Source: a virus. Taken from it: 38,368 nucleotides of DNA. Positions 22,253 through 38,202 of the stretch are shown here, in pieces. The translations under genes were made by a program, and so were the position numbers. The stretch is taken from IMG/VR virus record IMGVR_UViG_3300042503_002097, positions 1-38,368 of that record; one strand, 5' to 3'. Below the pieces are notes generated by a model. That model was given only the letters and a program-made list of their open reading frames with translations, had not been told where the DNA came from and searched no databases. The stretch's first letter is position 1, and each line of letters begins with the position of its first letter.

Positions 22253-22780
22253 CTATGACCCTTTCATAATGCTGTCAAGTGGTGCCCAGTCTACTTTGTC
22301 TAAGGCGGATAACTGCTCTTTCGTCCAAGACCATTGAGATTTATTTATTCTGGTCATCCCCATTTGTTCAAGTACCCATGCATCGCATTCATCGTCTGCT
22401 CCTCCTCCAGAAAAGACGGTTCCAGTTCGTGAGGATACGGCTGATATAACTTCACCTTTTCCAGCATTTCCCTTGCCTGTTGCAAACTTTGCTCTCGATG
22501 TTGGAGGAACCTCGATGTAAGGTATTTTGCATTCCCATAAAGTCATACGGATACAGCCCCCAAGCTCTCCAATACTGTGGGCCTGTGAGTTTCGTGACGC
22601 AAACGAGTACCCTTCAACAACAACGCATTCAACATCATTGTCAAGGCAAAACTGTAATACCAGTTTGGTTATCGTAGAAAGTCTCTCTGGGCCTTTGGCT
22701 TTTGTGGAGAATATTCCAGTATTGCCGTGAAGTGAATATCCGGTAGAAGTTAAAGATAGGTCTAATCCAAGAATATTCAC
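22253..22780 (-). CDS. RuvC-like Holliday junction resolvase
   Basis: This 175-residue protein has a RuvC/RNase H fold. The first acidic residue is in ILGLDLSLTSTGYS (D7), the second in CVVVEGYSFAS (E56), and the third set is GADDECDAWVLEQ (D129, D130, D133). KFATGKGNAGKGEV (98-111) is the substrate-side helix typical of phage RuvC-like enzymes. It resolves branched DNA made by recombination or replication, which is needed before packaging. The start is a GTG with no strong ribosome site. A strong terminator lies just upstream at 22803-22840, so it may have its own promoter or depend on read-through. Confidence 0.87.
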   Translation of the reverse strand: MNILGLDLSLTSTGYSLHGNTGIFSTKAKGPERLSTITKLVLQFCLDNDVECVVVEGYSFASRNSQAHSIGELGGCIRMTLWECKIPYIEVPPTSRAKFATGKGNAGKGEVISAVSSRTGTVFSGGGADDECDAWVLEQMGMTRINKSQWSWTKEQLSALDKVDWAPLDSIMKGS

Positions 22781-22802
22781 AGGCCAAGACTATAGCAAAA
22801 GA

Positions 22803-22840
22803 CGCAGGAGCAGGGCTAGTTTCCCAACCCTGCTCCTGCG
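22803..22840 (-). terminator. Strong intrinsic terminator after the HNH gene
   Basis: A perfect 13-base GC-rich stem (CGCAGGAGCAGGG and its complement) with a 12-base loop is followed on the minus strand by TCTTTTGC. It should end the leftward transcript that starts at the terminase gene, after the HNH gene and before the RuvC-like gene. On the plus strand there is no T-run. Confidence 0.75.
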
Positions 22841-22841
22841 C

Positions 22842-22860
22842 CTATAACGGTCCTAAGGTA
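22842..22860. other. 19-base 23S rRNA helix 69-71 sequence (I-CeuI core)
   Basis: CTATAACGGTCCTAAGGTA on the plus strand is, by recall, identical to the universally conserved E. coli 23S rRNA region of about nt 1914-1932 (helix 69 to 71). It also contains the core of the I-CeuI homing endonuclease site. Flanks (GCGC before, TTTATA after) do not match rRNA. On the minus strand, which carries the surrounding genes, it reads as antisense to the rRNA. It lies 11 bases after the HNH endonuclease stop and 1 base before the terminator stem. A chance 19-base match to such a core is very unlikely. Confidence 0.85.
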
Positions 22861-22871
22861 TTTATATTCTA

Positions 22872-23228
22872 CTACTCATCCCACGCGTGTTTTGCTAGTC
22901 CTAAATCAAATGCTAATTTTGGATAATTTCCAATCCTCGTATGGCACGGACGACACACTGCAATAACGTTTTCGTCTTTAAGGATTGAACCGCCTTGTGA
23001 GCGACGAACTAGTTCATGAACATCATGGCTTTGATTCTGAACATAAATTGACTTGTTGTCATATTCGGCAAAAACTGGACATGCTTGACACAGAGGGTTT
23101 TCAGAAAGGATGCGTTCAACAAGCTTACGCCGCTCTACATAAGCCGACTCTGTTTTTTTACTTCGCTTGGCTATTGGTTTTGTTCCGCGTTTAATGGGCG
23201 TTCTTTTTATTGGCTTTTTTCGCTCCAT
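22872..23228 (-). CDS. HNH endonuclease
   Basis: This 118-residue protein has an N-terminal Lys/Arg tail (RKKPIKRTPIKRGTKPIAKR) likely to bind DNA or RNA. The HNH domain follows: a zinc pair C47/C50 (CQAC), the catalytic HDVHELVRR (H68-H71), an Asn near N87, and CRPCH (C92, C95, H96). This matches small phage HNH endonucleases found near terminase or as homing enzymes. It lies in the recombination block just upstream of the 23S-like sequence and terminator. Roles considered are DNA cutting during packaging, homing, and attack on host DNA. No clear ribosome site is seen. Confidence 0.88.
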   Translation of the reverse strand: MERKKPIKRTPIKRGTKPIAKRSKKTESAYVERRKLVERILSENPLCQACPVFAEYDNKSIYVQNQSHDVHELVRRSQGGSILKDENVIAVCRPCHTRIGNYPKLAFDLGLAKHAWDE

Positions 23229-29577: not shown

Positions 29578-30117
29578 ATGTCATCAGACGCGCTCGAATA
29601 CAAAGCATCATCGCTAGGCTCGTTTGAGTCCAAAGGTGCAGGAATAAACCTAGATGAGGCTCAAGGTATCGTTGAGTGCTTCGTGTCGGGAATCGGCAAC
29701 AAGGACTCCGTGGGCGACATTGTTTCCACGGGGGCTTTCACAAAGAGCCTCATGCGTCGCAAGCCTCGCGTTGTTTGGGGACACAACTGGAACGACCCCA
29801 TCGGCAAGGTTTTGGAGATTTACGAAGTCCCATCTACCGACAACAGGCTACCTCTAAAAATGAAGATGGCTGGAATTGGCGGCCTATTCGCTCGCGTCCA
29901 GTTCAACCTTCAGTCCGAAAAGGGTAGAGAAGCGTTTGCAAACGTAGCTTTCTTCGGTGAAGAGCAGGAATGGTCAATCGGCTACAAGACGCTCCGTGCT
30001 CAGTATGACCAGAAATCTCAAGCAAACGTAATTTTTGAACTTGAGCTCTACGAAGTAAGCCCAGTTCTTCATGGGGCAAATCAGCTGACAGGAACAATCT
30101 CTGTCAAGTCCGACATG
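29578..30117 (+). other. Domain: prohead serine protease of the giant protein
   Basis: Residues 1-180 match the HK97-type (S78) prohead protease. They contain GNKDSVGDIVSTGAFTKSL (40-58), VVWGHNWNDPIGKV with H69, QEWSIGYKT with S133, and LYEVSPVLHGAN (157-168). It should cut scaffold and other head proteins at maturation. LSSM at 185-188 closes the domain. Confidence 0.9.
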
Positions 30118-33100
30118 CCAGCAGGGGCTCTTTCTTCAATGAACGAGGAAGACATGACTCCGCTGGATAGAGAAGAGCTTGAAAAGCAACTGTCTCTCAT
30201 GTTGGGCTCAAAAGTTTCATTGATGGACATAACCGAGGATGAGATTACTTTTGCAAAGCCTTCAGCCGAAGGCGTGAAGCGCTATAAGTGCCATTACGGA
30301 AGAAATAATGGCCAATTCATGTTTGGGCCACCTCGTCAATTCGAGGCGCCAAGCATGCACCCTACGTCTTCCCCTGTCATGCCGATGCCACCAAATCAGC
30401 CACAAAGAATAGTGCGTCCATCACAGATGCCGTCGATGCCAATAGCTGTTAAGCCCGGTCAGAACGGAATCACAATGGTTCCTCTTCCTGCTGTTAGATA
30501 CGAAGAAAACACAGAAAGACAAAAGCCTTTCGACCCAACAAATCTGGACCAAGAAGAAACTGACCTTCGCGACGCTTTGTTGAAGATTACAAAAAGACAC
30601 GGAAAATTCAACGAAGACTCTGATGGAGTATGGGCTGCATATACCCCAGCCTCTAGAAATGAAGTGGCAAACATCGGCGTCAAGTGCGCAAACTGCGTAT
30701 TCTTCCAAGGTGGCAATAGCTGCAAGATTATAGACATGGAAATAGAGTCCGAAGGTAAGTGCAGATTCGCTGTCATACCAAAGGGTGTCGTTACCGGCAA
30801 TATAGTTGTGCGCAAATCAGCAGAGTACGGAATGGACATTGACCAGGAAAACTACCTGCACGAAATCGAATACAAGTTCCCCAATGACCTTGCAGTAACA
30901 AGCCTGAGAGGCGCTATTGGCAGAAGCCGCCGCGCTCGCCGCAAGTATAAGGACATTTCAGAATTCGGTATGCCCGGCGATGAGTACGACGGAAAGTCAT
31001 ACTGCCTTCCAGTAATGCCAGAGGTCGCATTCAAGGTAAAGCAAGCCCTTGACCCCATCTTTGAATTCCATGGAGCAGAAACATTTGTTGACCCAGATGG
31101 AATCGTTTTTAAGTCTGGAGTGTCTCTTGAGCTCATCGAAGCAATCGATACTGCGCTTGACAATCTAAAAAAAAAATCCTTAGGTGAGGATTTAGAAGAA
31201 AAAGCCGGATATCGGCTCGGTAGAGCCATAGGAAGCCGCATGATTGACCGCCCCACTATTGGTGGCGAACGACGTCGAAACAGAATTCGAGACATAAACT
31301 TCACTACGCCAGGCGCTCGCCGATTCAACCCATTTACAGCTGTCGACAAAGACAGAGACGGAATGGTTGGCGACGAAGAGTACATGATGGGCCGTCCCCT
31401 GATTCAAAATGACCCAACACCAAATGGTCCTGGTTCTATCAATAATCCAAAACCTTCTCCTGAGCAAGTAGCAAAACTGGAAAACGAAAAAAAGCCTTTA
31501 AGAGTTCGCAAGGAAGAAATAGTTCGGAATCTTCCTCCAGAAAAAAAGCCGAAAAAAAGACCCAAAACATCAAGCAAACTTCCTTCGGACTATTTTGACT
31601 ACCTAAATAAACCAGAAAACAAGCGTTCGGAAAAAGAAAAACTTAAATTTGACGGCCCTCTTTACAAGTACAAAGAAGGTGACATTCTTTCGTCTGGTCG
31701 AGTTCTTGAGCGTGGTGACATGTTGGAAGAAGAGTCACCAGAGCTAAAAGAGTTCTACGCGAACATGACTCAACAGATGATTGAGATGCTCTCGGAAATT
31801 GCCAACAATCCGAACAAAAAGAACTGGACTCTCCCATGGAGAGACCCAGAGCATTACGCAAGAAATCCAATAACCGGACGCGTGTATCAAGGTTCAAACC
31901 AGTTGACCCTCATGCTCACAGCAAAGGCAAGAGGATACGAGGTCAACAGATGGGCTGGAGCTTCTCAGTGGAAACGCCTCAAAGGCAAGATTTCAAAAGA
32001 CGCCCGTCCGATGCCTGTTCTTGTTCCAATGGATGTAACGCAAACTGATATTGACGGTAAACCATTTAGTGAGCGCAAATACAAAGTTGAAATTGTTTAC
32101 AACATTTCGGACGTTCTCGGTCTACCAGAAGAGATGTACAAGGGTGTAGACGTTAATCAGATATCTGAAGAGGAACGCCTACAGAACCTGGAAGATGTTA
32201 TTAAGGAAATTGGACCGTCCATAAAAGAAACGTCCGGTTCTAGCGCCTTCTATCGCCCATCTACGGATGCTATCCATATGCCGGCGTTCACCCAGTTCAA
32301 TGACTCAACCTCTTACTATGCAACGCTCATGCATGAGACTGTTCACTGGACTGCGCACCCATCTCGTCTCAACCGAAAAGAAGCCAACATGGCTGTGCGG
32401 TTTGGGGATGAAAACTATGCTTTTGAAGAACTTATTGCTGAAATAGGCGCAGCTTTTGCTCTTGGTTCAATGGGCATTACTCCAACAATTAGAGAAGACC
32501 ACGCTATATATGTTTCTGGCTGGATGGAGAAACTAAAAACAGACCCAACAGCACTGCACAGAGCGCTTACTCAGGCACAGCAGGCAAACGACTACTTGTT
32601 GAACAAGTCTGCAACAATGAGAAGGCTCGCTGGAATTCCAGATGACGAGCGCAAGGGCAAGCGAGATGTTTGGACCGAAGTTCCAGGAATTATGGGCTAC
32701 GCCGATTCTCCATTGGTTCCGCCAACTAACACCATTTATGGACCAATTGAGGACCTCTACGATATTGATGAAGTAGATATTGACCCATCACTTATTCCAA
32801 ACCCAGAGGGTGAACTTTCTTACGACGAAAAACTCATCACGGCGACAGAATTCCGTGGCGATGTCGTAAAGACCGGACGTGATGGCTCTGTTATCGGTGC
32901 TGACGGACGTCTGTCTAGCGGCAAAGATTCTGGCCCAATTCGCGGAGTAGAGGGTAAGAAAGGCGTCCCCGAGGTCAAACGTGGGGATAGGTCTATTTCT
33001 TATCGCCGTGTATTCAAGCTTAAAGTGGAACCAACCGCTGAACAGAAAGACATCCTGGACCTGACGCTGCACCTCATTCGCAACAAAGACCCCCGCGTCG

Positions 33101-36100
33101 TGAGTGTTCTGGCTGGTGCAGGTACCGGAAAAACAACTACTCTTAAAAACATTGCATGGGCTCTTGAACGTGAATTCGACGTTCCAGATTCTGGAGAAGC
33201 AAGAATAGAGCACCTCAAATACCTGACTGATAGATATGGTATTTCTTTTGACAAGATGAGCGTCGATGAAGTGAACGCCGCCGTAAAAGAGCTTGCCAAG
33301 AAATACGAAATTGGCGACATGTACTACGCCGTTTTCGGAAAGAAAAATCAGCAAGAAGCAGAACTCGAATTCCCTGGCAATACGGGAGTCGCAACAACAT
33401 CAAAAATGTGGTATTGGTCGCTCGCTCTTGGTCAAGGAGACGAGAAGTACGGTAAAGAATTCAGAAGAAAACTTTCTGTTTCAAAGATGTCTCGTGACGG
33501 TTCAAAGACAACCAATTTAAAGAAGAATCCAGCTGCCGCAACTGACCCAGATGCTCCACCATTAATTCCACACGACTACACCGAAACAACTTTTGACGGA
33601 AAAACAGAAACATTCTCTGGCAGAAAACCTGGATTTGAAGAACTTGGGTGGAGAAGACTTGACGACGGCTCTAACTGGAAAGAATTTTTAAAACTTGCCG
33701 ATAGAGCAGACAAGATAATCATTACAAGACAGGAAAAAGTCAAGGGCGGCAAAAAGGACCAAGTACAAGAAGTCAAGATGGAAGGCTTTAGACTCCCTAA
33801 CGGAGCAGAAGTCACCGTCGATGAATTTGGAGACTTGTTCAACAAGGCAATGAGAAGATGGTCTCTCTCTGCTGACGAAAAAGCCACAAAAGAGATGTTT
33901 ACTTTGTCTGAAGTTGAGCTAGAGCAAAATGCTAGCGAAAAAGGCAAAAAGAAAATTAAAACTGGGGAAATAAGCCCAGTAGACGCTGATTTTGAAGTAA
34001 AAGAAGTCCCCCAAGAGTGGGTTGACATGCTTCAAGGGGCAATCGACGAGGTAATAGACAGAAATTCAAACATGCTGCCCACTAGAGAGATGGGTCCAAA
34101 GCTGTGGATGATGACAAATCCAGATTTGAGAACTGACCCAGGCTTAATTGGTCATTCAGCTACTTCGCTAATTATAAACAAAACAATTCCGAACACTTAC
34201 GGCGTAGGTGACACCTATGAAATAGACGGTGTTCAGTGGGTTGTTTCTTCAGTAAGCAAGCCTAGTAAGGCAAATAAGGGGACGCACATGGCCAAACTGG
34301 CCAAACCTTATGCAACAAAAGATAAACCACTAAGTGCGTTCTTTGTGGACGAAGGACAAGACTCAAACCCAATCATTGAAGAAGTCCTAAAGCGCAACAG
34401 AGAAAACCTTCCAATCATTCTTGTTGGAGACGACCGTCAAGGCGTGTTTGCTTTCAACAACGCAAAAAACATTTTGGCCTCAATGGAGCCAGACTATGAA
34501 CTTGAAATAACACAATCTTTCAGGTACGGAGACGTTGTAGGCCACTTGGGCAACCTTGTTTTGGCAAAGCAGAACATATATCTCACCAGCCAGGGCGTTC
34601 CTCAACCGCCATGGAAACACGTCAAGGGTGAGGCACAAAATACTGTATATAAAAACTTCGACGACCTTTTGCCGGAAGATGTAAGAGTTCTCAAGGACCT
34701 TCCAGAGCTTTCGCCAGAAGAAAGACGTGAAAAGATTCTCCACGTCGAAAGAACTTATTCAACTCCTGACAGGCAACTTGACATTGTTGACCTCCCTCTT
34801 GAAGAGCAAACAAAAGCTCTTTTGTCCCTGAGAGATGAACTAGCAGCACCAAAAGCTGGAAGAATCGTCGATGCAGATGAAGAAATCAAAAAAGGCAACC
34901 TGCCAACAATGATTCTCACAAGAAGCAATCGTCAAATCATCAAAGAAGCATCGGCCTTCCTTATGGCTTTCCTTGCTTCTCCGTCCGGAAAAGACAAAGA
35001 CGGCAAGGCGGTTTTGCCAGAAATTATTATTCCTGCCCAAAAACACAAAGAAATGATTGAGTTCGCCGAGCATCTCAAATACATTTTCCTCAGCCCCTCT
35101 CAAAGAAAAGATTATGAAACAAAGCGTGGCGGTCGACCTGTTGCTTCGTCAATCATTGGCCCGGTGTGGACGAGAGGCGAAGTAACACGCAAACTCAATC
35201 AGTCGCAGTATACGCAGCTAAGAACAATGTACAAGCTCATTATGGAGAAAGACCCAAACGACCCAAATAGCACTGCGCTTGGTGTTAATGGTCTTCTTAC
35301 TCTCCTAAATGGAGCCGTCAAGAGAGAAACTGACGACAAAGGCAAATCGAAGCTAAGAGTAATACCCCCAACACTCATTGCTGAACGTGAAACATTAACT
35401 TTGCCAAAATTTGCTGTCAGCGTTGACCAAGTGAAAAACGCAGCAAATGCAAAAACGGTAAAGAAAAACGTTAGGGCAGGACAAGATAATCAGCTAGAAA
35501 AATTCCTTATTCTTCCACCTAGCGACAATAAGGATAAACACGGAGTTTACGCTCAGTTGGAAATAATTGGAGGAAGCGAAAAATCCCCCGGAAAAGCCAC
35601 TGGAAAAATATTTATAACTGGAGACGGAGCCGATACTGGCCGCCCAACAATTCTTGCAGACGGAACCGAAAAACCAATTTCCAGAAAAGGAAACGGAAGA
35701 TACAGAAGAGATTTGGAAAAGGCAATTGAACGCCTCGGCCTAACGGATAAAGTTAAGCCAGGAGAACAGCTCGCCCATGCCAGAGCGGACAGAATAGACA
35801 GGTCGTATGACGGCTTTGTAATTGATGCTGGTTCTATTGAGGAAAACTCAAAAATACTTGCTCAGCTTGGAGATGCCTTGCGTGAAGCCGCAAGAACGAC
35901 TGGCGGAGACGTTGAAATAACCACAGCACAGTTGGCAAAGGGACGCGAGTCTCGTTTTGTAAAACTAGCCGAAGACTTCATGGACCCCATGGAGGTCTTT
36001 GCGGAGAAGCCGCGAGGAATGTCGGCCATCAACTGGATGGAGGAAACAAACCTTGTATATGTTGCCCTCACTCGCGCTCAGGAAATGATTGACCCAGGTA

Positions 36101-38202
36101 GCCAGGTATTCAAGATTTACCTTGCCGACAATGTAACCGAAAACCAAAGAAAAGAAATGGCCGCCGCTGCAAAACGTGGCGACTTGCCTGAAGACCTTGA
36201 TAAGGGCGCTTTTGCTGATGGAAAAATTTCTTTGCCTGAAAAGTACAAAGCAATCAATGAAGGAAGAAACACAGCCGGAAGTCCTCCAGAAGAAGATAAT
36301 GAAAAAATCGTCATCCCCGACTCCATTGGGGAAACAGAAGAAATTGACGATGTCGAAATCCCGAAAGACGAAGAAGAACTGGTATTGCCAGAAGGTGAAG
36401 AAAACATTGACGACGTCATAGACCAAGAAGATGAAAGTGAAATTCTTGACTCAACGGACGATGGCGAAGAAGACGACAATATTGACGACTTTGATGCAGT
36501 GCTTGAGGAGTTTGATGGTCTTTCATCTGGTCGTGCGTCTGCTGCCTCGGCATCAAGGTTGTCTAGCGGACAAACGGGCGGACGCTCGTCTCGTCGAGTA
36601 TCTCGTTCAGGCCGTGTAAAGACCTCTGGAGGTCGCCCAAGCCCAAGAATGATTGCAGGATTCAGGTTAAGCGGACAGGACAGTGAAGGAAACCCAACGA
36701 ACCCTGCAAACAATCCTCGTTTGCGTAGAGCTCTTGGATTTGCAATGAACGTCTGGGATGAATTTAGAAAGACAGGAATCGTTCTAGATACTGACTCACA
36801 GAAAACCAGCATGGGTCGCCGCGATTCAATCAAGACGGGCATGAACAACGTCAAAAACAGAATTGGCAAAAAGCCAAACATCTCTGTTGGCAACGTTCTT
36901 GATAACGAAAGAAACGAAAACCCATCTGCAGCTACATGGATGCTTTCCGTAGACAAGCTCAGAGACACGATAAGAATCCCAACCGAATATTCCGTTGTCG
37001 AGAGATATGGTGAATTCTCTGGACAAAGAGACATCGCTTGGACTCAGTCTCGCCCAATATCGGTAGAAGAGCTTGCTGACATGCTGAGTCTTGACGGCGA
37101 AAATGCAAAGAAGTTAGGCGAGCCTAACGCTGGCATTAGCCACGATGCAGTGAGAACCCTCATTGGTGAAATAGGACGAGAAGAAGCTTTCCCAGGTTGG
37201 AAGCTTTTCTCTCCCGTTACCCCCAACGATAAGGTGACAGAAATTGACGACGCCGGCGAAGAGGTTGAGCGCGCGCTAACTGATGCTGAAAAGATGGAAG
37301 AAGTTCTCGGCAGAGCAAATATGCGTGACAGATTCATTGTCGAAACATTTGGCTCTGACGCATATCCGTTCTGGTGGGATACCGACGAAAGTCGAGCAAT
37401 GACCCCCGAGGAATACAGAGACCTCGGAGAGGTAAGTGCTGCTTCGAAGTTTATGGCGGGCGGAATGTTTGACAAAGATGACCCCGTAGCTGGGGACTCA
37501 GATGTTGAAGCCGACTATTACCTTGAAGGGTTTGAGGGTGTAGACATCCCTGCTGTTGAGGAAAACGTAACAGCAGAAGAGCTAAAAGCAGACAAAACCT
37601 CTCGCAAGGACTTTGAGCTTTCCAACCTTCTTGGATATCTCGGAATAAGCAGAGACGAGTGGGCCGCGACCCTGAAAGAGCGCCTAAAAGGCTCTTTTGG
37701 AATGGAAGACGTAGGACTCAATAGCACGGAAGCTGTTAAGAGTTGGGAAAATGAAGGCGTCCCCATTGCCTACATTAGTCAAATGATAAAAACTGGACTC
37801 ATTCCTAGCGCTGGAACAATTTGGGGCGGGAAAACTGGTTCTGATGGAAAGAAGACTGGCCCTGGCATTCGACTAGACACAGAGCTTTCTAGAAAGAAAT
37901 ACGTTGTGTACCAAGCTCTAGCCGACTTCCTGAATAAGACATCCCCTGGGAAAGTCAGCCGTGACGTGCGCAAAGAGATATCCGGAGAAAGCGGAATCGA
38001 TACCGTGCTGGATGCAGCGAAAAAGGCCAAGGGAGCAGGGTTCTCCGCCAAAAAAGGAGACGAACCTCGCTTCAGCGACAATCAACTGCAAGAGATAGTC
38101 AATCGTTTTAACAAAAGATTTGACACCAACTACACGATTGAAGACATCTTCAGCGCTGAACAGCTAGAAGCCGCACGCAAGAAAATAGAAGAAGCAGAAT
38201 AA
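29578..38202 (+). CDS. Giant polyvalent protein: prohead protease, ArdC-like, SF1 helicase
   Basis: This 2874-residue protein is far longer than the usual ~200-residue prohead protease. In order it holds an HK97-type serine protease (about 1-180; H69, S133, E159 or H165), a Pro/Met-rich linker, a four-Cys motif (C370-C395), an EF-hand loop (590-601), an ArdC-like antirestriction module (about 722-1045; HETVH at 919-923), a UvrD/Fbh1-like helicase (about 1140-2200), an acidic linker (about 2245-2312), a Ser/Arg/Gly-rich stretch and an unknown C-terminus (about 2341-2874). LSSG motifs at 704, 1112, 2315 and 2328 lie between the parts. The gene lies directly after the portal, the standard protease place. 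It is inferred to be a precursor that the protease domain may cut, so that parts are carried in the head and injected. Confidence 0.9.
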   Translation: MSSDALEYKASSLGSFESKGAGINLDEAQGIVECFVSGIGNKDSVGDIVSTGAFTKSLMRRKPRVVWGHNWNDPIGKVLEIYEVPSTDNRLPLKMKMAGIGGLFARVQFNLQSEKGREAFANVAFFGEEQEWSIGYKTLRAQYDQKSQANVIFELELYEVSPVLHGANQLTGTISVKSDMPAGALSSMNEEDMTPLDREELEKQLSLMLGSKVSLMDITEDEITFAKPSAEGVKRYKCHYGRNNGQFMFGPPRQFEAPSMHPTSSPVMPMPPNQPQRIVRPSQMPSMPIAVKPGQNGITMVPLPAVRYEENTERQKPFDPTNLDQEETDLRDALLKITKRHGKFNEDSDGVWAAYTPASRNEVANIGVKCANCVFFQGGNSCKIIDMEIESEGKCRFAVIPKGVVTGNIVVRKSAEYGMDIDQENYLHEIEYKFPNDLAVTSLRGAIGRSRRARRKYKDISEFGMPGDEYDGKSYCLPVMPEVAFKVKQALDPIFEFHGAETFVDPDGIVFKSGVSLELIEAIDTALDNLKKKSLGEDLEEKAGYRLGRAIGSRMIDRPTIGGERRRNRIRDINFTTPGARRFNPFTAVDKDRDGMVGDEEYMMGRPLIQNDPTPNGPGSINNPKPSPEQVAKLENEKKPLRVRKEEIVRNLPPEKKPKKRPKTSSKLPSDYFDYLNKPENKRSEKEKLKFDGPLYKYKEGDILSSGRVLERGDMLEEESPELKEFYANMTQQMIEMLSEIANNPNKKNWTLPWRDPEHYARNPITGRVYQGSNQLTLMLTAKARGYEVNRWAGASQWKRLKGKISKDARPMPVLVPMDVTQTDIDGKPFSERKYKVEIVYNISDVLGLPEEMYKGVDVNQISEEERLQNLEDVIKEIGPSIKETSGSSAFYRPSTDAIHMPAFTQFNDSTSYYATLMHETVHWTAHPSRLNRKEANMAVRFGDENYAFEELIAEIGAAFALGSMGITPTIREDHAIYVSGWMEKLKTDPTALHRALTQAQQANDYLLNKSATMRRLAGIPDDERKGKRDVWTEVPGIMGYADSPLVPPTNTIYGPIEDLYDIDEVDIDPSLIPNPEGELSYDEKLITATEFRGDVVKTGRDGSVIGADGRLSSGKDSGPIRGVEGKKGVPEVKRGDRSISYRRVFKLKVEPTAEQKDILDLTLHLIRNKDPRVVSVLAGAGTGKTTTLKNIAWALEREFDVPDSGEARIEHLKYLTDRYGISFDKMSVDEVNAAVKELAKKYEIGDMYYAVFGKKNQQEAELEFPGNTGVATTSKMWYWSLALGQGDEKYGKEFRRKLSVSKMSRDGSKTTNLKKNPAAATDPDAPPLIPHDYTETTFDGKTETFSGRKPGFEELGWRRLDDGSNWKEFLKLADRADKIIITRQEKVKGGKKDQVQEVKMEGFRLPNGAEVTVDEFGDLFNKAMRRWSLSADEKATKEMFTLSEVELEQNASEKGKKKIKTGEISPVDADFEVKEVPQEWVDMLQGAIDEVIDRNSNMLPTREMGPKLWMMTNPDLRTDPGLIGHSATSLIINKTIPNTYGVGDTYEIDGVQWVVSSVSKPSKANKGTHMAKLAKPYATKDKPLSAFFVDEGQDSNPIIEEVLKRNRENLPIILVGDDRQGVFAFNNAKNILASMEPDYELEITQSFRYGDVVGHLGNLVLAKQNIYLTSQGVPQPPWKHVKGEAQNTVYKNFDDLLPEDVRVLKDLPELSPEERREKILHVERTYSTPDRQLDIVDLPLEEQTKALLSLRDELAAPKAGRIVDADEEIKKGNLPTMILTRSNRQIIKEASAFLMAFLASPSGKDKDGKAVLPEIIIPAQKHKEMIEFAEHLKYIFLSPSQRKDYETKRGGRPVASSIIGPVWTRGEVTRKLNQSQYTQLRTMYKLIMEKDPNDPNSTALGVNGLLTLLNGAVKRETDDKGKSKLRVIPPTLIAERETLTLPKFAVSVDQVKNAANAKTVKKNVRAGQDNQLEKFLILPPSDNKDKHGVYAQLEIIGGSEKSPGKATGKIFITGDGADTGRPTILADGTEKPISRKGNGRYRRDLEKAIERLGLTDKVKPGEQLAHARADRIDRSYDGFVIDAGSIEENSKILAQLGDALREAARTTGGDVEITTAQLAKGRESRFVKLAEDFMDPMEVFAEKPRGMSAINWMEETNLVYVALTRAQEMIDPGSQVFKIYLADNVTENQRKEMAAAAKRGDLPEDLDKGAFADGKISLPEKYKAINEGRNTAGSPPEEDNEKIVIPDSIGETEEIDDVEIPKDEEELVLPEGEENIDDVIDQEDESEILDSTDDGEEDDNIDDFDAVLEEFDGLSSGRASAASASRLSSGQTGGRSSRRVSRSGRVKTSGGRPSPRMIAGFRLSGQDSEGNPTNPANNPRLRRALGFAMNVWDEFRKTGIVLDTDSQKTSMGRRDSIKTGMNNVKNRIGKKPNISVGNVLDNERNENPSAATWMLSVDKLRDTIRIPTEYSVVERYGEFSGQRDIAWTQSRPISVEELADMLSLDGENAKKLGEPNAGISHDAVRTLIGEIGREEAFPGWKLFSPVTPNDKVTEIDDAGEEVERALTDAEKMEEVLGRANMRDRFIVETFGSDAYPFWWDTDESRAMTPEEYRDLGEVSAASKFMAGGMFDKDDPVAGDSDVEADYYLEGFEGVDIPAVEENVTAEELKADKTSRKDFELSNLLGYLGISRDEWAATLKERLKGSFGMEDVGLNSTEAVKSWENEGVPIAYISQMIKTGLIPSAGTIWGGKTGSDGKKTGPGIRLDTELSRKKYVVYQALADFLNKTSPGKVSRDVRKEISGESGIDTVLDAAKKAKGAGFSAKKGDEPRFSDNQLQEIVNRFNKRFDTNYTIEDIFSAEQLEAARKKIEEAE
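30685..30762 (+). other. Domain: four-Cys motif in the giant protein
   Basis: C370-x2-C373-x8-C382-x12-C395 lies in KCANCVFFQGGNSC...EGKC. The pattern recalls the small iron-sulfur (HiPIP-like) or zinc modules sometimes found beside phage prohead proteases. Which metal binds is unknown. Confidence 0.6.
31345..31380 (+). other. Domain: EF-hand-type calcium loop in the giant protein
   Basis: DKDRDGMVGDEE (590-601) fits the 12-residue EF-hand loop with D at 1, 3 and 5, G at 6, V at 8 and E at 12. It stands alone and may bind calcium. It lies in the linker before the ArdC-like part. Confidence 0.6.
31687..31701 (+). repeat. LSSG motif 1 (LSSGR, residues 704-708)
   Basis: It lies 14 residues before the ArdC-like domain, in GDILSSGRVLERGD. 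It is a candidate processing site or linker repeat. Confidence 0.55.
31741..32712 (+). other. Domain: ArdC-like antirestriction module
   Basis: Residues 722-1045 match ArdC-type proteins. The N-terminal ssDNA-binding part has FYANMTQQMIEMLSEI, then TLPWRDPEHYARNPITGRVY and GSNQLTLML. The zincin part has MHETVHWTAHPSRLNR with the HETVH zinc site (919-923) and YAFEELIAEIGAAFA (947-961), with the third ligand among its Glu residues. ArdC proteins protect entering DNA from restriction in plasmids and phages. Confidence 0.85.
32911..32925 (+). repeat. LSSG motif 2 (LSSGK, residues 1112-1116)
   Basis: It lies between the ArdC-like part and the helicase in GADGRLSSGKDSGP. It is a candidate processing site or linker repeat. 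Confidence 0.55.
32995..36177 (+). other. Domain: UvrD/Fbh1-like SF1 helicase
   Basis: Residues about 1140-2200 hold SF1A motifs: a Q-motif (Q1156), Walker A GAGTGKTTT (1180-1188), VDEGQD (1590-1595), LVGDDRQGVFAF (1615-1626), QSFRYGD (1646-1652), a motif V-like AQLAKGRESR (near 2115), and VALTRAQE (2162-2169). About 400 residues lie between Walker A and B, roughly twice the usual, with extra beta-rich insertion near YEIDGVQWVVSS. It should translocate on ssDNA. Confidence 0.88.
36520..36534 (+). repeat. LSSG motif 3 (LSSGR, residues 2315-2319)
   Basis: It lies after the acidic linker in EFDGLSSGRASAAS. It is one of two tandem copies before the C-terminal part. Confidence 0.55.
36559..36573 (+). 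repeat. LSSG motif 4 (LSSGQ, residues 2328-2332)
   Basis: It is the second copy of the tandem pair in SASRLSSGQTGGRSS. A looser RLSGQDSEG follows at 2363-2371. Confidence 0.55.
36598..38199 (+). other. Unknown C-terminal part of the giant protein
   Basis: Residues about 2341-2874 follow the last LSSG motif. They are polar, with helical stretches (LRRALGFAMNVWDEFRKTG; LSNLLGYLGISRDEWAATLK), a Trp/Tyr-rich stretch (DAYPFWWDTDESRAMT) and a charged helical end (FSAEQLEAARKKIEEAE). No known family is recognised. A scaffold-like or second antidefence role is possible. Confidence 0.5.

Follow-up and report, generated by a model that had tools for sequence, protein, structure and literature searches.

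The window analysed here is the whole 38,368-nucleotide stretch of DNA of the IMG/VR virus record IMGVR_UViG_3300042503_002097, which comes from a virus whose terminase and resolvase are less than 60% identical to those of their closest named relatives. The locus of interest lies between two genes that are both encoded on the minus strand: in reading direction, a small HNH endonuclease gene (22,872–23,228; phrog_15522, 1.9e-09), whose stop codon is found at 22,872, and a RuvC-like resolvase gene (22,253–22,780; phrog_159, 1.1e-38) that starts with GTG at 22,780. A hexamer TATAGT is present on the minus strand at 22,789–22,794, 8 nucleotides before this GTG codon, and the arrangement suggests that the transcript of the RuvC-like gene may be leaderless or near-leaderless, beginning right behind the small RNA terminator described below. 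Elsewhere, the window carries a PAPS-reductase-like auxiliary gene (PF01507; 19,695–20,834, minus strand), and one open reading frame (ORF) of 2874 amino acids occupies its right end (29,578–38,202, plus strand).

Window positions 22,842–22,860 read CTATAACGGTCCTAAGGTA on the plus strand. This 19-nucleotide sequence is present as a single copy in the window, is identical to positions 1914–1932 of Escherichia coli 23S rRNA (position computed on the rrlH sequence), and is found in none of 100 dinucleotide shuffles of the window, even with three mismatches allowed, which confirms its recognition in the original prediction as the 23S core. Both neighbouring genes being on the minus strand, the segment is, as had also been proposed, antisense to the rRNA on the coding strand, where it is complementary to the loop and 3′ strand of helix 69 (H69) and to the adjoining linker. 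An Rfam scan of the window gave no matches, large subunit rRNA included, and no rRNA homology was detected beyond the segment, as other matching words of 12 or more nucleotides up to 700 nucleotides away lie dispersed and, by our estimate, are no more frequent than expected by chance. The sharp ends ascribed to the match are real in the window, at 19 nucleotides; most of the clade conserves a shorter part of 17 nucleotides (22,842–22,858).

On the minus strand, this segment forms the beginning of a predicted small RNA of approximately 62–63 nucleotides (22,797–22,859) that is conserved in relatives and has the layout 5′-(A)CCUUAGGACCGUUAUAG-hairpin-UCUUUU. The hairpin has a stem of 20 base pairs (22,800–22,843, minus strand) and leads into the U-run of an intrinsic terminator, TCTTTT in its DNA form (22,797–22,802, minus strand); the computed fold of the 70-nucleotide stretch has an energy of −42.9 kcal/mol. 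A strong terminator had been placed one base behind the segment: the terminator does adjoin it, but its hairpin begins within the last bases of the segment, and its T-run is only modest. Among 14 relatives of equal length (13 of them distinct), pairing within the stem is kept in 98.5% of cells, and seven stem pairs are altered on both sides, resulting in 20 double-change cells compared with 5.8 in shuffles and 0–4 in slid controls. Of 78 hairpins, 69 have the lower fold energy as antisense RNA and nine as sense RNA, and 67 distinct hairpins contain 190 G.U pairs when read as antisense against 29 when read as sense, a strand comparison that is independent of the partly motif-based selection of the hairpin set. 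These two biases indicate that the RNA corresponds to the antisense strand, which is also the strand on which the terminator hairpin and U-run are found.

A -10-like box, TAGAAT (22,866–22,871, minus strand), directly follows the HNH stop codon and precedes the segment by 7 nucleotides, with no recognisable -35 element upstream. A distance of 6–7 nucleotides is that of a sigma-70-type -10 box with transcription starting at the first base of the segment. TANNNT occurs at this distance in 26 of the 29 relatives that carry the element with at most one change (retrieved with the RuvC-like protein, see below). When counted over sequence clusters, a spacing of exactly 6 nucleotides is seen in 13 of 29 (41 of 69 distinct sequences), one of 7 nucleotides only in the window itself (1 of 29) and each other offset in at most three, and the hexamer is absent at 6–7 nucleotides from 15 of the 29. 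Inspection by eye of divergent families revealed one group (L186, L187 and L190) in which the core is truncated on its 3′ side and instead extended 5′ into UCGCUACC, antisense to 23S positions 1929–1936, with a box TATCTT located 6 nucleotides before the extended segment, and another (the L003, L006 and L053 families) where TATACT is followed by a small 5′ hairpin and then by the segment. The clade of L185, L188, L195 and L198 is without a -10 box and carries a U-to-C change opposite A1916. Because of its own -10 box, the RNA predicted in the window's clade is more likely a free-standing transcript than a 3′-UTR product, so that the layout of a 3′-UTR-derived small RNA, as first proposed, holds for the segment and terminator and is disfavoured for the origin of the transcript. 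Families devoid of the box may be 3′-UTR elements.

Conservation was assessed using the neighbouring RuvC-like protein as bait, which avoids selection on the motif itself; 80 loci were kept of 579. The 17-nucleotide segment is unchanged in 17 of them, carries one change in 12, two in 2, three to four in 11 and five to six in 4, and in the remaining 34 it shows 7–8 mismatches, equivalent to absence of the element. Conservation in related phages, which the original prediction had named as a check, was observed for the 29 of 80 loci in which the segment differs at no more than one position, while some relatives have lost or degraded it. Judged from these sequences, part of the clade has kept the element, the other members having lost it or never acquired it, and its absence from 34 of the 80 loci indicates that it is dispensable.

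The exact 19-mer is found in nine viral stretches of IMG/VR, one of which (L008) is real 23S rRNA; a hairpin adjoins it in most of the other eight. At least 119 viral stretches contain a 16-mer, TATAACGGTCCTAAGG, which, together with the loci collected earlier, gave 61 distinct contexts among the matches listed; most of these share the architecture of the window. An 18-mer (BCTATAACGGTCCTAAGG) was recovered from only 10 stretches in 257 Gb of cellular genomes, and prophages or hosts therefore hardly carry an element of the window's type. Note also that two Myxococcus genomes and a deltaproteobacterial MAG (L247:2492, L250, L248:4150–4167) contain, outside rRNA, antisense H69 segments of 22–24 nucleotides resembling GYUGCUACCUUAGGACCGUUAUAG, possibly cellular relatives of the predicted phage RNAs. 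Prior to the counts reported in the following, we left out true rRNA (L008, L140, L273), rRNA contexts (L244 and L245), a duplicate of the window (L027), near-identical contexts as judged by flank identity and, for the UCGYUAC and ORF-location tests, the other cellular loci.

Differently built antisense segments in other phages slide over 23S positions 1906–1977, i.e. H69–H71. They cover positions 1908–1924 in Staphylococcus phage SpP (L139) and in L344 and L347, approximately 1907–1934 in L345, 1926–1941 in Rhodococcus phages Trina, Dorin and others, 1929–1953 in Staphylococcus Sextaecvirus phages, and 1937–1953 in Pseudomonas phages phiPMW and SYP and about 12 further contigs. All 10 non-rRNA viral matches to the 17-mer 1908–1924 are antisense segments, and a hairpin comes after nearly all of them. 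Some segments are moreover bipartite: of the 16 contexts of the 1926–1941 segment, 8 have upstream of it a second piece antisense to 23S positions ~1950–1977, and in six of these the piece is at least 11 nucleotides long, e.g. CGCCATTCGTG (the 8-nucleotide match of L276 belongs to one long match). No such piece was found downstream in the 16 contexts, and random sequences gave 83 of 3000. Between the 23S stretches matched by the two pieces lies the H71 hairpin; the RNA either leaves it out or carries a hairpin of its own instead, as in Trina (L253) and also in L300, of the 1938–1953 class. Similarly, UCGYUAC, antisense to 1931–1937, is present within 100 nucleotides on the 3′ side in 7 of 27 anti-H69 contexts and on the 5′ side in none, as compared with 62 of 5000 random cases; it sits inside the terminator hairpin in L344 and L052, and its occurrence at +60 in L028 may be due to chance.

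Several further arrangements were noticed. In one set of loci (L257, L259, L288, L290, L292, L301, L306, L307, L309, L314, L319, L329 and L340), a hairpin of almost constant sequence, ACAAUUACCCGACAAGGAAUUGU, has a loop that is antisense to 23S H71. It is located upstream of a terminator in many of these loci and beside tRNA genes in some, and may represent a kissing-loop version of the same class. L332, L336 and L342 have a terminator-like hairpin whose large loop appears to hold a 24-nucleotide anti-23S segment, and L294 and L338, which bear IMG identifiers in the style of isolate genomes, contain antisense copies of approximately 45 nucleotides of 23S 1912–1958 with small indels. In a marine viral contig (region of L276:3443–3458), an ORF of 344 amino acids includes a near-perfect antisense-to-23S stretch of ~38 nucleotides, which may be a chimera or a true insertion.

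Among named phages, the non-rRNA matches to H69–H71 queries are mostly unannotated and located between genes. The carriers are five Vibrio phages, Rhodococcus Trina and Dorin, Staphylococcus SpP, Pseudomonas phiPMW and SYP, and three Sextaecvirus phages together with a near-identical sequence labelled as an Arcanobacterium phage. The match in Trina overlaps the start or end of a 123-nucleotide hypothetical gene, and those in Roseobacter phage CRP-7 and Serratia phage WSPA fall inside genes; additional matches were seen in Kagunavirus 536P11, two fecal records named Bacteriophage sp. and two Salmonella records. With E-values of 1 to 8 these short matches are not significant alone, and their weight comes from position, strand and conservation. 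Pseudomonas phage Vasula (19 of 21 nucleotides) was dropped as a probable chance match, since its gene strand is the sense strand. Apart from rRNA, the records retrieved with the L261 element were from Streptococcus and a Fusobacterium phage, and they matched the terminator part of the query alone.

The architecture was quantified over 76 distinct contexts. An antisense-strand terminator was found within ~90 nucleotides in 28 of them and a sense-strand one in 3, compared with 11 of 600 random stretches, using a strict test that misses, for example, hairpins with a short T-run. The antisense-strand terminators are distributed over the three 16-mers used as queries (1915–1930, 10 of 28; 1926–1941, 9 of 16; 1938–1953, 9 of 32), with one sense-strand case for each. 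Fifty-seven of 74 contexts from four classes are intergenic, and the closest 5′ ORF within 300 nucleotides of these 74 is on the same strand in 30 cases and on the opposite strand in 5. The 1938–1953 class is mixed, as 13 of its 32 contexts, probably chance matches, are located in ORFs. For a control 16-mer (23S 2445–2460), no terminator was detected in seven contexts, four of which lie inside ORFs. A control 36-mer from 23S (2441–2476) hit three non-rRNA records, all in genes, and another from 16S rRNA (515–550) hit one record in a gene and one short contig of uncertain nature, so that the antisense pattern is absent from these control rRNA regions. Two other candidate targets were discarded: a 16-nucleotide match of L006 to 23S 2445–2460 recurs in 23 stretches that are mostly coding and share no architecture, consistent with chance, and for the matches of L062 and L033 to the 530 loop of 16S rRNA the bases lie within a GC hairpin, the 16S control giving almost no non-rRNA phage match.

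The computed energy of the duplex between the window segment and 23S rRNA is −32.1 kcal/mol, compared with −7.2 kcal/mol for isolated H69. In 23 distinct contexts (16 viral and seven from the cellular scan), in-register complementarity extends beyond the 16-nucleotide core by a mean of 3.74 nucleotides, G.U pairs allowed; random flanks gave 1.04, and the highest mean in 2000 draws was 2.00. Complementarity to 23S rRNA thus exceeds chance, and this includes the sliding and bipartite segments of unrelated phages. Mismatches are compatible with wobble pairing in Vibrio and Staphylococcus and incompatible in L176 and L218; few independent changes are available, and the target is nearly invariant. 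The flank complementarity, the sliding segments, the bipartite pieces and UCGYUAC together indicate that the constraint is pairing with 23S rRNA and not a fixed motif. Strand, promoter, terminator, covariation and bipartite complementarity bear out the original idea of an antisense RNA acting on 23S rRNA and ending in an intrinsic terminator, and we regard it as highly probable that the predicted elements are anti-23S RNAs.

Our best explanation, which we hold to be somewhat better than an even bet, is that a phage RNA expressed from its own -10 promoter pairs with H69–H71 and thereby hinders 50S maturation or subunit joining; for the effect on maturation or joining taken separately, we see the chances as balanced. 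The window would be transcribed on the minus strand from this promoter, yielding 5′-(A)CCUUAGGACCGUUAUAG followed at once by the strong intrinsic terminator. The single-stranded 5′ end would pair with 23S positions 1914–1930/32, that is, the 3′ half of H69 and the linker toward H71, and the RNA would belong to a large set of phage RNAs, each built independently, that target positions 1906–1977. It would bind H69–H71 while these are exposed, either on free 50S subunits or on pre-50S particles late in assembly, and might hinder docking of H68–H71, 50S maturation or joining of the 30S subunit in favour of host takeover. Existing 70S ribosomes, in which the subunit interface covers H69, would escape. 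We infer transcription, pairing in the cell and the ribosomal effect from sequence comparisons. Both H69 and H71 show flexibility in pre-50S particles that have not undergone docking; the limiting step towards the end of 50S assembly is docking of H68, and large subunits in which H68 is flexible are unable to join 30S subunits (PMC11260487). Growth of E. coli is inhibited by a synthetic antisense peptide nucleic acid (PNA) against H69 (Kulik et al., 2017, as summarised in PMC7038079). Given this flexibility, the limiting role of H68 docking and the PNA inhibition, an RNA on 1906–1977 could trap immature or free 50S subunits. Counting against this explanation, H69 is folded in mature ribosomes and buried in the 70S ribosome, and, because phages themselves depend on ribosomes, impairing them would require a reason.

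The alternative that survives best, although we consider it unlikely, is pairing with 23S rRNA that does no damage. Here, the RNA would mask H69–H71 from a host defence nuclease, a modifying enzyme or a hibernation factor, or would tether phage RNA to the 50S subunit; without a -10 box, it would be an mRNA 3′-UTR element docking on the 50S subunit released at the stop codon just upstream. Consistent with this, the target is fixed by region (1906–1977) and not by exact place, and in several families the segment lies a few to tens of nucleotides past the stop codon with no visible promoter. However, the window's clade has the layout of a free RNA with its own -10 box, and we know of no single cleavage or modification site that is common to all segments.

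Far less probable is that an RNA from the sense strand mimics H69–H71 and acts as a decoy, either of ribosome-binding proteins or, as the original prediction had considered, of an rRNA-directed nuclease or methylase. The sequence does equal rRNA, and the L052 and L344 families can form an H69-like hairpin, but terminators (28 versus 3 of the 76 contexts), G.U pairs, -10 boxes and neighbouring genes all mark the antisense strand, and most segments comprise only one strand of H69. We have rejected the sense-strand decoy on the basis of the terminators, G.U pairs and -10 boxes.

A site acting at the DNA level, i.e. an I-CeuI-like homing or recombination target for the HNH enzyme or an integrase, is more improbable still. 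The 19-mer lies within the I-CeuI recognition region, the I-CeuI homing site in 23S overlaps it in DNA sequence, and an HNH gene adjoins the segment in the window. Differently from the I-CeuI site, the phage elements have no linked endonuclease gene, and their fixed orientation, promoter and terminator indicate an RNA function. The HNH gene is present in 76 of the 80 RuvC loci: all 29 that carry the element have it, as do 47 of the 51 that lack it. When HNH itself served as bait, 10 of 17 loci were without the element within four mismatches. Being similarly common with and without the element, HNH is judged to be a bystander; many other families have different neighbours and segments that slide along 23S, and the homing-site proposal was abandoned. 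Recent transfer from a ribosomal operon was rejected as well, since rRNA homology is limited to a segment whose position along 23S and whose length differ from one family to the next. Least credible of all is chance, contamination or an assembly artefact: a few matches are indeed real rRNA (L008, L273) or coding coincidences (a family of 615-amino-acid ORFs), but the control 16-mer and two control 36-mers are without such a pattern and isolate genomes from different laboratories show the same layout, which refutes an assembly artefact for the class.

Like trans-acting bacterial and phage small RNAs with intrinsic terminators, the window RNA is predicted to be short, with its own -10 box and a single-stranded seed beside a Rho-independent hairpin, but its seed matches a universal 23S segment, where those of the trans-acting RNAs meet mRNA leaders. 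The box C/D and H/ACA guides of archaea and eukaryotes are small RNAs that pair with rRNA, sometimes in two places around a stem, a feature shared with the phage RNAs; no such boxes were noticed in the latter in an informal look, and we know of no C/D or H/ACA guide machinery in bacterial hosts. Outside modification guides, no natural antisense RNAs targeting rRNA itself have, to our knowledge, been described. Rfam includes other non-coding RNAs of phages (drum, GOLLD, ROOL), some of them likewise beside tRNA arrays, yet cmscan of the window and 19 loci assigned no Rfam family to the elements except for the true 23S rRNA of L008. One contig with the 16-mer also contains a drum RNA in a phage tRNA array (L137:6878–6987). 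The growth-inhibiting anti-H69 PNA is antisense to the same helix and man-made, whereas the predicted phage RNAs are natural, many of them also targeting the linker and H71 (Kulik et al., 2017, as summarised in PMC7038079). We found no report of a phage or bacterial small RNA against 23S rRNA in the open literature searched, to which subscription journals and bioRxiv are mostly external, and none in the accessible part of PMC8545117.

The presence in many unrelated viruses of predicted RNAs directed at the same 23S stretch suggests an undescribed route of ribosome interference. We give an even chance to the more general proposal that unrelated lytic phages have repeatedly evolved antisense RNAs against H69–H71, some clamping both sides of H71, which would block 50S maturation or 30S joining while sparing engaged 70S ribosomes, and would thus constitute a general, RNA-only form of host shutoff. 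The class is open to study in cultured phages, namely Vibrio phage PWH3a-P1 (V. natriegens), Rhodococcus phage Trina and Pseudomonas putida phage phiPMW. A recurrent class converging on one rRNA region would represent a new route of host takeover, show where 50S assembly is naturally vulnerable and provide antisense leads against a universal bacterial target.
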